From Caulobacter vibrioides (GTDB lineage Bacteria > Pseudomonadota > Alphaproteobacteria > Caulobacterales > Caulobacteraceae), in contig NZ_PJRR01000004.1 of the NCBI RefSeq assembly GCF_002858865.1, positions 1 to 64,000 of the forward strand: 64,000 nt of DNA, in the 5' to 3' direction. Position 1 is the stretch's first letter; every line of letters starts with the position of its first letter. This document shows, piece after piece, positions 1 through 48,923 of the stretch. The position numbers were made by a program, and so were the translations under genes. The notes under the pieces were generated by a model that was not told the DNA's origin, ran no database searches, and was given only the letters and a program-made list of their open reading frames with translations.

Positions 1-656
1 TGGAAGCGCAGCGTGTCGCTGATCTTGCCGCCGTAGTCGGCGTCGAGGCGCTTTTCGCCGTAGTTCAGGCCGTAGGTCCCCTGGACCGCGCCACCCTCGG
101 TGTCGCCGGTCTTGGAGATCAGGTTGATCACGCCGCCCGGCGAGTTCGACGCAAAGGTCGAGGCCGAACCGCCGCGGATCGTCTCGATCTGCGAAAGGTT
201 CAGGTCGCTGCGCATGAACATGTCGGAGGTGAACTGCAGCATATCGCCGAATTCGAGGACGGGCAGGCCGTCTTCCTGCAGCTGCACGTACTTGGAGCCG
301 GTGCCCGACAGCGGCAGGCCGCGGATCGAGTAGTTCGCGTTGCCTTCACCGCCTGCGTACTCGGCGCGGATGCCGGGGATGTTGCGCAGCACTTCGCCCA
401 GCGAGCGGGCGCCGTAGGTCTCAAATTCCGAAGCGCGCAGGGCGCTGGTGGACGTGGCGCTGTCGAGGCGGTCGCGGCCCTTGGCGACGCCGGTCGAGAA
501 CACCGCCTCGCCATGGTTCTTGCCGCCGGCGCTTTGGACAGCCTTTTCAGCCGCGGGCTTGGCCTCGGCGGCGGCGTCGGCGCTCAGAGCCTCTGCGTTC
601 GCAAACGAGAACATCAAAAGCGGCGCGATCGCAGCGGTCGCGAGCAGATATTTCAT
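1..656 (-). CDS. TonB-dependent receptor, N-terminal part (cut by window edge)
   Basis: This is the first 218 codons of an outer-membrane TonB-dependent receptor; the beta-barrel lies beyond the left edge. It starts at the ATG at 654-656 with GGAG eight bases upstream. The N-terminus is a signal peptide (MKYLLATAAIAPLLMFSFANA), followed by an Ala/Lys-rich linker and the plug domain, where the RGLPLSGTGSKYVQ and GGVINLISKTG segments are visible. It is a tandem paralogue of the complete receptor at 1015-3528. Bases 1-509 are identical to 2885-3393, while the signal-peptide and linker region differ clearly, including a four-residue insertion (ADAAAEAKP against ADAKP). The substrate cannot be told from sequence. 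Confidence 0.9.
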   Translation of the reverse strand, partial: MKYLLATAAIAPLLMFSFANAEALSADAAAEAKPAAEKAVQSAGGKNHGEAVFSTGVAKGRDRLDSATSTSALRASEFETYGARSLGEVLRNIPGIRAEYAGGEGNANYSIRGLPLSGTGSKYVQLQEDGLPVLEFGDMLQFTSDMFMRSDLNLSQIETIRGGSASTFASNSPGGVINLISKTGDTEGGAVQGTYGLNYGEKRLDADYGGKISDTLRF

Positions 657-765
657 GAGAGGGCTCCGTACGTCTCTGTATGCGTTGTGTAACTTGAGGT
701 TATGTTGGCGTACGGGTTATAACGATAAGGTAAATCTGGACTTATGCTTTGCCGCACTTGGGTGC

Positions 766-776
766 GACATTGTGTC
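766..776 (-). promoter_or_regulatory. GACA-N3-TGTC palindrome upstream of receptor 1
   Basis: The sequence GACATTGTGTC forms a 4+3+4 inverted repeat 110 bases upstream of the ATG of the truncated receptor. Read on the minus strand it is GACACAATGTCGCACC. The same minus-strand word recurs at 3637-3647 (GACATAATGTCGCACC) at the same distance from the second receptor, and at 5790-5800 (GACACTATGTCGCA) upstream of the chemoreceptor. The binding factor is unknown. Confidence 0.5.
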
Positions 777-951
777 CTAATTTCTATTGCTACACTTGAT
801 ACAACTTTGCGAGCATCGCGCCACTCACGCGCGAGTGCGGTGTTGCAGCGCCCTGCTCTCACTCGACTGGACGTCTGATGTCGTCGTGGGGAGCAGGGTC
901 TGGGCCGATGGGCGCCTTGCTGTCGCCAGCCGTCGAACCTGCATCACAAAA

Positions 952-985
952 AGCAGCGGCCGGGATGCGTGAGCATCCCGGCCGC
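952..985 (-). terminator. Rho-independent terminator of TonB receptor 2
   Basis: A 13-bp perfect stem (956-968 with 973-985) closes a GTGA tetraloop. On the minus strand it is followed by CTGCTTTTTG, so the T-run fits termination of the receptor gene ending at 1015. The plus side has only a weak CTTTG. Confidence 0.8.
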
Positions 986-1014
986 CTTTGTTCCAGAGTC
1001 TCTGGTGCAGCGTC

Positions 1015-3528
1015 TTAGAAGCTGTAGCGCAGCGTCGCCGAAGCCGTCCGGCCTGCGTAGGCCCGGCCGAGGATGACGCCGCTGGCCGGGATGGCGGCCT
1101 GTTCGGAGTCGACCATGGCCAGGGTGTTGAACACGTTGTTGACGTTCAGCATCAGCTGCACGTTCTCCATCGGGCGGATCTGCACGAAGGCGTTGACCAG
1201 CTTGTAGCCCGGCAGCTTCAGCTGGTTGGTGTCCTGCGCGTAGCTGCTGGTGGTGCCGATCACGTTGAAGCCCACCGTGGCGTTCTTCAGCTCGACCTGC
1301 GGCGTCACCGAGTAGATGAAGTCGGCCTGGTGGCGCGGCTTGTTGCCGATGAGAGTCGCGCTCTGGTCGGCGCTGGTGATCTTGGCGTCGGTATAGGTGG
1401 CGCCGGCGGTCACGCTGAACGGGCCCTTGCTGACAGCGGCTTCCAGTTCGACGCCCTTGGCCTTGTAGCCGCGAACGATGTTCAAGACGTCAGTGGTGCC
1501 GTCGGAGCCGCTGACGACCTGGATGTTACGCTCGCCGGTCTTGGCCGAGAAGCCGGTGACGTTAAAGGTCACGCCCGAGATCCGGTACTTCAGGCCCAGC
1601 TCGGCCTGCTTGACGGTGTCGTAGGCGCTATCGGCATCCACCAGCTTGCCGGTGTTGTAGTCGACCGCCGGCGTGAACAGGAGCTTTTCGGCCGAAGAGC
1701 GACCACCCCGGCTATAGCGGGCGAAGACGGCCAGCTGCTCGGCGACGCGATAGTTCACGCCCGTCGAATAGCTCAGATAGTTGTAGTCGTAGTCGACGCG
1801 GCCAGGCTGGCCCAGCGGCAAGGCGGCGGTCTTGGTTTCCGCCAGCGAGATCACGCCGTCGCTGTTCATGTCGCGCGAGATCACACCCACGCGGCTACCG
1901 CCCAGTTCGGCGCCGTAGAGGGTGCCGTCGACCTTGCCCATGTCGTAGCGCAGGCTGCCGCCCACGGAGATCTTGCCGATGTGGTAGTTGATCGAGGCGT
2001 ACGGCGCATCGACGCTGTTCGTCACGTCGTAGGTGCGGTGAAAGAGCGCGCCGCCAACGCCGTAGGCCACCATGCCGTCTTGCGTAGCGGCCACGCCGGT
2101 GGCCGTGCGGACGTTGATCAGCGATGTCTGGCCGTCGCCGTTGACGTCGGTCAGCGTGTTCATGAACGACCAGTAGGAGCCGTAGTCCTGCGACGACTTG
2201 TAGTAGCCGACCGTGGTCGTCAGGTTGCCTTCACCCACCTTCCACACGCGGCTGGCGCGCAGATCGTTGGTGATGTTGTCGAGGCTGTCGATATCGCTCT
2301 TGATCTTCACCGCCGACGTCATCAGGCCGTTGCCGTTGAGCGCCGTAGGGTTGGCGATCGCCTGGCCGACTTGCGGACCGGTGGCGAAGCTGAGCGCGCC
2401 ACCGACGCCGCCGTAGACGAAGGCGAGTGCGGCCGCCGGGGCCACAGCGATGGGGCGGACCTGCCGGACGCCGCCCGAGATCTTCGAGATGCGGAACTTC
2501 TCGCTGATGGTCCAGCCGTTCAGCTCAATCTGCGAGTCGAGACCAACAGAGGCGACCTTGGAGCGCTGGCCTTCGCGGATGTCGTCGCGCGCGATGTTGT
2601 TGTTGGCGTCCAGCGTGACGATGTTGCTGGTGTAGGGCGACAGCAGCGAGTCGGTCTTGATGTTGAAGTTGGCCGGGTTCGAGAAGGTCGGATCGGCGTT
2701 GGTGCCGGTCACGCGGATCGGCACGAACTGGTAGGACGGCGTGCGATCGTCCATCAGCTTGGCGTAGACGCGCACATAGCCGTTCTCGAGCGTCTTGGTG
2801 AGGTTGGCCTTGATCTGGCCGCCCTTGTAGGCGGTGTAGCCGACGTCGCGCGGACCTTCACCCTGGCGATAGAAGCCGCCGATGTGGAAGCGCAGCGTGT
2901 CGCTGATCTTGCCGCCGTAGTCGGCGTCGAGGCGCTTTTCGCCGTAGTTCAGGCCGTAGGTCCCCTGGACCGCGCCACCCTCGGTGTCGCCGGTCTTGGA
3001 GATCAGGTTGATCACGCCGCCCGGCGAGTTCGACGCAAAGGTCGAGGCCGAACCGCCGCGGATCGTCTCGATCTGCGAAAGGTTCAGGTCGCTGCGCATG
3101 AACATGTCGGAGGTGAACTGCAGCATATCGCCGAATTCGAGGACGGGCAGGCCGTCTTCCTGCAGCTGCACGTACTTGGAGCCGGTGCCCGACAGCGGCA
3201 GGCCGCGGATCGAGTAGTTCGCGTTGCCTTCACCGCCTGCGTACTCGGCGCGGATGCCGGGGATGTTGCGCAGCACTTCGCCCAGCGAGCGGGCGCCGTA
3301 GGTCTCAAATTCCGAAGCGCGCAGGGCGCTGGTGGACGTGGCGCTGTCGAGGCGGTCGCGGCCCTTGGCGACGCCGGTCGAGAACACCGCCTCACCGCTC
3401 GCCTTGCCGCCGGCGCTTTGCACGGCCTTTTCAGCCGCGGGCTTGGCGTCAGCGCTCAGCGCTTCTGCATTCGCGGACGAAAACATCAGGAGCGGCGCGA
3501 TGGCGGCGGTTGCGAGCAAGTACTTCAT
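1015..3528 (-). CDS. TonB-dependent receptor, complete
   Basis: An 837-residue outer-membrane active transporter energised by TonB-ExbBD. A signal peptide of about 21 residues ends in SSANA. It is followed by a Lys/Ala linker, a plug domain (residues about 65-190, with RGLPLSGTGSKYV and GGVINLISKTG), and a 22-strand-type barrel ending in the aromatic outer-membrane signature LRYSF. GGAG eight bases before the ATG supports the start. The substrate is unknown. The plug is identical at nucleotide level to the adjacent partial paralogue. The chemoreceptor gene lies directly upstream on the same strand, but each has its own leader with a shared palindrome, so joint control is likely rather than one transcript. 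A terminator follows the stop codon. Confidence 0.93.
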   Translation of the reverse strand: MKYLLATAAIAPLLMFSSANAEALSADAKPAAEKAVQSAGGKASGEAVFSTGVAKGRDRLDSATSTSALRASEFETYGARSLGEVLRNIPGIRAEYAGGEGNANYSIRGLPLSGTGSKYVQLQEDGLPVLEFGDMLQFTSDMFMRSDLNLSQIETIRGGSASTFASNSPGGVINLISKTGDTEGGAVQGTYGLNYGEKRLDADYGGKISDTLRFHIGGFYRQGEGPRDVGYTAYKGGQIKANLTKTLENGYVRVYAKLMDDRTPSYQFVPIRVTGTNADPTFSNPANFNIKTDSLLSPYTSNIVTLDANNNIARDDIREGQRSKVASVGLDSQIELNGWTISEKFRISKISGGVRQVRPIAVAPAAALAFVYGGVGGALSFATGPQVGQAIANPTALNGNGLMTSAVKIKSDIDSLDNITNDLRASRVWKVGEGNLTTTVGYYKSSQDYGSYWSFMNTLTDVNGDGQTSLINVRTATGVAATQDGMVAYGVGGALFHRTYDVTNSVDAPYASINYHIGKISVGGSLRYDMGKVDGTLYGAELGGSRVGVISRDMNSDGVISLAETKTAALPLGQPGRVDYDYNYLSYSTGVNYRVAEQLAVFARYSRGGRSSAEKLLFTPAVDYNTGKLVDADSAYDTVKQAELGLKYRISGVTFNVTGFSAKTGERNIQVVSGSDGTTDVLNIVRGYKAKGVELEAAVSKGPFSVTAGATYTDAKITSADQSATLIGNKPRHQADFIYSVTPQVELKNATVGFNVIGTTSSYAQDTNQLKLPGYKLVNAFVQIRPMENVQLMLNVNNVFNTLAMVDSEQAAIPASGVILGRAYAGRTASATLRYSF

Positions 3529-3636
3529 GAGAGAACTCCGTGTATTTCTTAGTTATATATACTTTTGGGTGCTTGTTGATTTTTCTACTATAACAACAAG
3601 GTAAACCCGAGCTTATCAGCAGCGACTTTGTGGTGC

Positions 3637-3647
3637 GACATTATGTC
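3637..3647 (-). promoter_or_regulatory. GACA-N3-TGTC palindrome upstream of receptor 2
   Basis: GACATTATGTC lies 109 bases before the receptor start codon, almost exactly the spacing seen at 766-776. The conserved core extends to GACATAATGTCGCACC on the minus strand. The flanking leader also keeps the TTTACCTT and GTTATA blocks. It is a candidate operator for an unidentified regulator. Confidence 0.5.
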
Positions 3648-7064: not shown

Positions 7065-7165
7065 CTAGAGCATTTTCCGATCTGTTTGGATCGGAGAAAT
7101 GCTCTAGCCCTTTGTATTAACGCATTTTCTGACGACGAACCGGATCCACTTCGTCGGAAAATGCT

Positions 7166-48812: not shown

Positions 48813-48923
48813 GTGTCATCCCGGCCGAAGCGTAGCGTAGAGCCGGGACCCAGGGGCGGCGCGCACAGAGCTCTGTCACCCCCTGGGTCCCGGATAGCCT
48901 CTGCGAGGCTTCCGGGATGACAC
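48813..48923. repeat. GTCATCCCGG palindromic repeat between convergent genes
   Basis: GTGTCATCCCGG (48813) and CCGGGATGACAC (ending 48923) with inner GGGACCCAGGGGC and CCCCTGGGTCCCGG. It is almost a copy of 54474-54582. It could act as a bidirectional transcript end between DUF1295 and DUF72. Confidence 0.85.

Follow-up and report, generated by a model that had tools for sequence, protein, structure and literature searches.

In a stretch of 64,000 bases from Caulobacter vibrioides (the window; bases 1–64000 of contig C20, which is 237,258 bases long and belongs to a 3.97-Mb assembly in 25 contigs of a strain labelled G000), two tandem genes for TonB-dependent receptors, here named T1 and T2, share a tract of 509 bases that is identical base for base in the assembly; outside it the two genes show old divergence. 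We consider it very probable that sequence has been exchanged between T1 and T2, and probable, with clearly less assurance, that the complete 509 bases were converted ectopically and mainly in the direction from T1 onto T2. The coordinates of the genes and of the two copies of the tract are as follows:

1015..3528, minus strand: T1, a complete TonB-dependent receptor gene of 837 amino acids (open reading frame, Pfam)
1..656, minus strand: 5′ part of T2, an open reading frame left open at the contig end; the rest is on contig C19 (L009, 9338 to its end)
510..656, minus strand: T2 signal peptide and linker, diverged from those of T1 and 12 bp longer
657..1014: T1–T2 intergenic region, with partial matches in three relatives (G046, G072 and G070)
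1..509, minus strand: T2 copy of the exact tract, codons 46–215 in T1 numbering
2885..3393, minus strand: T1 copy of the exact tract

T1 and T2 are TonB-dependent receptors by their combination of plug and barrel in Pfam, the T2 barrel coming from the part on C19, where it scores above cut-off. T1 resembles the family in having both domains (PF07715 Plug, residues 60–172; PF00593, the TonB_dep_Rec_b-barrel, residues 423–799) above cut-off; in contrast, none of the NCBIfam models listed scored above its own threshold, the best of these being TIGR01783.

Contig C20 ends at window base 1. The terminal 121 bases of C19 (61,324 bases) equal window 1–121 and likewise window 2885–3005, and when C19 and C20 are joined at this overlap, T2 is intact, with 2523 bp and a single stop codon at its end. 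The adjacency of the two contigs is supported by the relatives, since the C19 DNA adjoining T2 is likewise located after T2 in G072 and G070, and partly so in G046. Furthermore, because the base preceding the 121-base overlap on C19 differs from window base 2884, the tract is exactly 509 bases long in the joined sequence. It is the longest of four direct exact repeats of at least 30 bases in the window, the next being one of 60 bases (at 7083 and 61667); another, of 47 bases, lies at 48877 and 54536. The tract (codons 46–215) comprises a conserved EAVFST segment, which we label TonB-box-like, the whole plug, and the start of the barrel.

The edge toward the signal peptide is abrupt, the match stopping at base 510, and 147 bases of T2 precede the tract where T1 has 135. 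On the barrel side the edge is soft, with four differences at T1 nucleotides (nt) 645–738 followed by divergence at the level of the paralogues. An earlier reading of the sequence alone (the sequence-only reading) had claimed the identity of 1–509 with 2885–3393, a diverged linker and signal peptide of 147 bases with an indel, and abrupt edges; our comparison agrees with it on the first two points, and on the third at the signal-peptide side only. It had also asked whether identity stops in the barrel to the left of the window, where C20 ends; the continuation on C19 supplies the answer, namely a tract of 509 bases and then the soft divergence just described. The 31 bases directly past the tract (window 2854–2884, T1 nt 645–675) hold four differences between T1 and T2, and over codons 216–240 T2 equals the T1 of G046. 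The true conversion may have extended past the tract, with a later change in T1.

To place the pair in time, we searched 75 genomes of the genus, including G000, with four candidates scored per genome, so that further copies could have been missed. Besides G000, the tandem pair was found in G046 (assembled in 2 contigs), G072 (1 contig) and G070 (about 730 contigs), with T1 and T2 in the identical order; G023 has two separate copies, and one copy each was seen in G013 and G064. A contig scan, which may omit records very close to G000, returned two loci and no second assembly of the strain; one locus is in a Caulobacter vibrioides metagenome-assembled genome (MAG), with the same match as G070, and one in a Phenylobacterium MAG. 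In a tree of the mid barrel, the T1 genes of the four tandem genomes stand apart from the rest (support 100/100), while the T2 genes lie among other relatives, and the mid barrel rejects a constraint that holds both copies of G000 and G046 together (p 2e-48, approximately unbiased test). Because the tandem pair is present in three other genomes and the T1 barrels group together, the duplication predates these species, and T1 and T2 are old paralogues.

Within the 509 tract sites, T1 and T2 differ at 0 sites in G000, 23 in G046, 48 in G072 and 73 in G070. In G000 the paralogues have a synonymous divergence (dS) of 0.54 in the mid barrel and 0.23 in the C-terminal part, but of 0.00 in the tract, and the nonsynonymous divergence (dN) of the mid barrel is 0.26. 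Silent sites do not evolve slowly in the plug, since the T1 genes of G000 and G046, compared as orthologues, have a dS of 0.12 in the tract against 0.07 in the barrel; in eight T1–T1 or T2–T2 comparisons, tract dS between orthologues ranged from 0.09 to 0.32. Between the two G000 copies, 116 variable sites in a row match, where the maximum in 5000 shuffles was 25, and at third positions, for the assembly as given, 84 variable sites in a row match (shuffle maximum 32, again 5000 shuffles). The 509-base identity is not due to chance.

The direction of the exchange can be read from eight tract sites that consistently separate T1 from T2 in G046, G072 and G070. In G000 the two copies agree with T1 at seven of them (nt 292, 293, 407, 408, 412, 416 and 418) and with T2 at the remaining one, nt 441, the states in the middle of the tract holding for the assembly as given. 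The seven T1 states fall in codons 98, 136, 138, 139 and 140, which in T2 are located as follows:

225..239, minus strand: T2 codons 136–140, LQFTS, T1-type; T2 of G046 has YQLGT, that of G072 YQLIA and that of G070 YQVIA
351..353, minus strand: T2 codon 98, Gly, T1-type; Ile in T2 of the three relatives

Two neighbouring positions of G000, nt 436–437, are as in T2 of G046 and in no other of the 12 aligned sequences outside G000. At nt 552, which lies in an end of the tract whose identity the assembly should guarantee (see below), G000 T2 has a T that is otherwise found, among 12 sequences, only in T1 of G000 and G046. Taken by these sites, the shared sequence appears to be that of T1 with a T2 patch (nt 436–441). 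Since the two copies are T1-type at seven of the eight fixed sites and T2-type at the eighth, exchange probably occurred more than once.

We propose that T1 and T2 are an old tandem receptor pair in which homologous recombination in the G000 lineage, either between the two genes (ectopic gene conversion) or with DNA of this locus from outside, would have overwritten the plug region of T2 with that of T1, while T2 kept its own signal peptide and barrel. T2 would thereby have become a chimera of a T2 barrel and a T1 plug, with T1 residues at codons 98 and 136–140, and an exchange in the reverse direction probably took place too, the patch at T1 nt 436–441 being T2-type in both copies. The findings are those expected of conversion: the copies are older than the event and diverged outside the tract, they are identical at silent sites within it, and T2 has there the diagnostic states of the other copy. 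The sequence-only reading had likewise favoured a recent conversion of the plug; the age of the paralogues, a silent-site identity that is absent in the relatives, and the T1 states in T2 speak for it, while the alternative of an assembly repeat remains partly in play. A more general notion, that the TonB-facing segment and the plug form a cassette that can pass from one receptor gene to the other and leaves each barrel distinct, so that codons 98 and 136–140 were overwritten and two different barrels now have one gate, is a tentative one that we rate as rather doubtful.

The reliability of the tract depends on how the assembly was built. Among 50 contig ends, seven pairs are joined end to end by exact 121-base overlaps, further groups of ends have common terminal words of 121–131 bases, and five other pairs overlap by a shorter 29–74 bases (three N-reading ends, of C16 and C17, were set aside in this count). 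Because 121-base overlaps recur at contig ends, the assembly graph was presumably built with 121-base words, and C19 and C20 presumably broke here because the tract is present twice. Since such a graph merges copies only over at least 121 shared bases, window 1–121 and 389–509 should be identical in the chromosome as well. The tract thus falls into three parts:

1..121: tract end with identity presumably guaranteed by the graph; equals the C19 terminus
389..509: other tract end with identity presumably guaranteed, given the 121-bp overlap
122..388: middle of the T2 tract, with no graph guarantee; 20 of the 23 paralogue differences of G046 lie here

Several observations weigh against a complete conversion from T1 onto T2. 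In the trees, the grouping of both copies of G000 and G046 is not rejected by the plug (p 0.19) nor by the C-terminal part (p 0.08), and the plug tree is compatible with a T1 clade, which is already in its best tree (75/97). Because the C-terminal part, like the plug, fails to reject the grouping, topology does not single out the plug; FastTree put all four G000 and G046 plugs in one group, which a more careful tree lacked, and neither topology was rejected in the tests. Nor is the direction clean, as at the 23 sites where the G046 paralogues differ G000 agrees with T1 at 13 and with T2 at 10; four of these ten (nt 240, 339, 471 and 480) are changes private to G046 T1. Finally, the tract coincides with an assembly break, and the paralogue differences of G046 are distributed as 20 in the middle and 3 in the ends (1 and 2), where G072 has 26 and 22, and G070 42 and 31.

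These last two points bring in the alternative of an assembly collapse, in which the plugs are similar and not identical, their middle paths were merged between flanks identical over 121 bases or more, and one middle was written twice; we regard it as an unlikely explanation but one that has to be taken seriously. Some assemblers merge bulges for isolates at equal depth, and differences in 122–388 could have been merged in this way, which could mimic part of the identity. The contig break with its 121-base overlap falls exactly at the start of the tract, the same overlap being found at several other contig ends, and the G046 paralogues match exactly over 108 and 94 bases near the two guaranteed ends, with 20 of their 23 differences between them, so that a G046-like pair with slightly longer flanks could yield the same contig layout. 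Bulge removal is a step of de Bruijn assemblers as outlined in one account (PMC8021871). However, a collapse would still require exact identity over at least 121 bases at each of the two ends, which have 9–18 differences each in G072 and G070, and 1 and 2 in G046, and the T1-type nt 552 of T2 sits in a guaranteed end. Moreover, the middle is a mosaic of T1 and T2 whichever copy it represents, so that exchange would have occurred anyway, and because only 12 bases (nt 424–435) separate T1-type from T2-type sites in the G046 pattern, such a mosaic is unlikely to come from a choice between graph paths. The sequence-only reading had named a collapsed or mis-joined repeat as what would overturn it; that objection retains force for the middle, while 121 bases at each end should be secure.

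Recombination with the DNA of another strain, by which the plug of T2 (or of T1), or the whole T2 side, came from a relative, appears improbable to us. Between G000 and G046 the barrel dS of T1 orthologues is 0.07, against 0.40 for T2 orthologues; the DNA downstream of T2 is matched by G072 at 91% in one 5.1-kb piece and by G046 only in parts; and replacement from strain to strain has been reported for Caulobacter CB2A (PMC6986707). Even so, a T2 plug from elsewhere would need to be identical to that of the local T1 over 509 bases, and a local or near-identical T1 would still be the likely source. A recent duplication of one gene, after which the barrel and 5′ end were replaced, would likewise leave an identical block, but a recent duplication is ruled out by the same order of T1 and T2 in G046, G072 and G070, by the grouping of the T1 barrels and by the divergence of the barrels, and we give this scenario hardly any credence. 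The sequence-only reading had already argued against a recent whole-gene duplication, a judgement upheld by the diverged barrels and by the pair in three relatives. As for purifying selection holding the plug identical, the plug does vary less than the rest of the protein (dN 0.01–0.04 in six T1–T1 or T2–T2 comparisons among G000, G046 and G072), but the 84 consecutive matching third positions and the orthologue dS of the plug rule out selection alone, and its likelihood is next to nil.

The comparison of sister strains for concerted evolution, suggested by the sequence-only reading, gave a mixed result. The plugs differ between the copies of each relative, and recurrent concerted evolution was not demonstrated. 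With 128 sites assumed, G046 has 11 silent plug differences between its copies versus 34 (p 0.0002) and 24 (p 0.03) between G046 and G072 orthologues, and G072 has 30 between its copies versus 34 (p 0.67) between orthologues. Runs of matching sites as long as those of G046 arose in 0 of 5000 shuffles over the whole gene (5 of 5000 at third positions), in 308 (2571 at third positions) when shuffling was within the tract, and in 135 (1153) when it was within nt 100–760; the whole-gene signal mostly mirrors the lower rate of the plug. Genome-private states shared by the two copies number 1, 3, 0 and 2 in the tract for G000, G046, G072 and G070, respectively, compared with 0, 0, 1 and 4 in the mid barrel and 1, 1, 3 and 2 in the C-terminal part; these are few sites, and across the four tandem genomes there is no excess confined to the tract. 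The evidence for concerted evolution in the relatives is thus suggestive in one genome (G046), and the trees, the within-tract run tests and the private states do not establish it.

Gene conversion between paralogues within a bacterial genome has been described, for example for tufA and tufB, and long-lasting concerted evolution in prokaryotes is called rare in the same account (PMC6053082). Judged against what that source presents, T1 and T2 are similar in having a block of identity that includes silent sites between paralogues with differing flanks, but differ in that the block is a single, domain-sized tract whose recurrence in relatives was not demonstrated. Among the titles listed on TonB receptor conversion, Caulobacter tandem receptors or recombination, concerted evolution, plug mosaics, assembly bulges and conversion of outer-membrane paralogues, none concerned this locus; the case would be a new example of paralogue conversion, which is itself established in bacteria. 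If the full tract is real, the pair is a natural domain swap, with an identical plug in different barrels, and would let one ask directly which part sets ligand choice. The locus also holds a lesson for practice: when an exact repeat runs to base 1 of a contig and that contig overlaps another by one word length, an edge of the assembly graph must be considered before any biological reading.

The position of the exchanged codons in the protein is suggested by distant matches only. An AlphaFold model built from four sequences had a mean predicted local distance difference test score (pLDDT) of 25.3 and was not usable for the arrangement of the 22-strand barrel and plug. Sequence matches to solved structures were to FecA (1pnz; residues 52–190) and CntO (6i96; 56–214) in the plug, and to FhuA (8a60; 639–801) in the C-terminal barrel; they are weak (best E 4.6e-9), with no sign of the same substrate, and the FhuA plug segment alone was not significant (i-Evalue 0.15). 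In this weak FhuA alignment, residue 98 falls beside an arginine and residues 138–139 on a Phe-Tyr pair, which we take to be the ferrichrome contacts Arg81, Phe115 and Tyr116, and codons 98 and 136–140 would presumably then lie at the plug apices; we regard this as a lead only.

A conserved element of 16 bases, GGTGCGACATTRTGTC, starts 119–120 bases ahead of the start codons of both receptors:

761..776, plus strand: T2 conserved upstream element, GGTGCGACATTGTGTC
3632..3647, plus strand: T1 conserved upstream element, GGTGCGACATTATGTC

The genome has only two exact matches to GGTGCGACATTRTGTC and four more with two mismatches (the reversed control gave 1), and the element is found at 119–120 bases before T1 and T2 of G046, G072 and G070 with 0–3 mismatches. 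Its TGTCGCA core also precedes four genes of G023, G013 and G064 (4–6 mismatches); neither element nor core was found before the third paralogue of G000 itself or before the Phenylobacterium gene. It is likely a regulator site; among the titles listed in a literature search for the core together with Caulobacter, none was relevant.

The G072-like DNA downstream of T2 spans L009 4112–9337 on C19. G046 is nearest on L009 1–4021 (97%) and L011 (96%), and is without a match, among those listed, for L009 5461–7386 and 8387–9271, stretches that we read as an M56-like peptidase gene and an EAL gene. By these matches, the T2 locus looks like a mosaic of strain haplotypes. A pectate-lyase-like gene at L009 4112–5467, about 3.9 kb from T2, matches the PelZ model far below its cut-off and perhaps hints at the receptor substrate. 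Short dispersed elements lie at L011 6371–6485 (about 115 bases) and L009 4030–4110 (about 80 bases); each of the three related genomes that were searched contains many copies of them.

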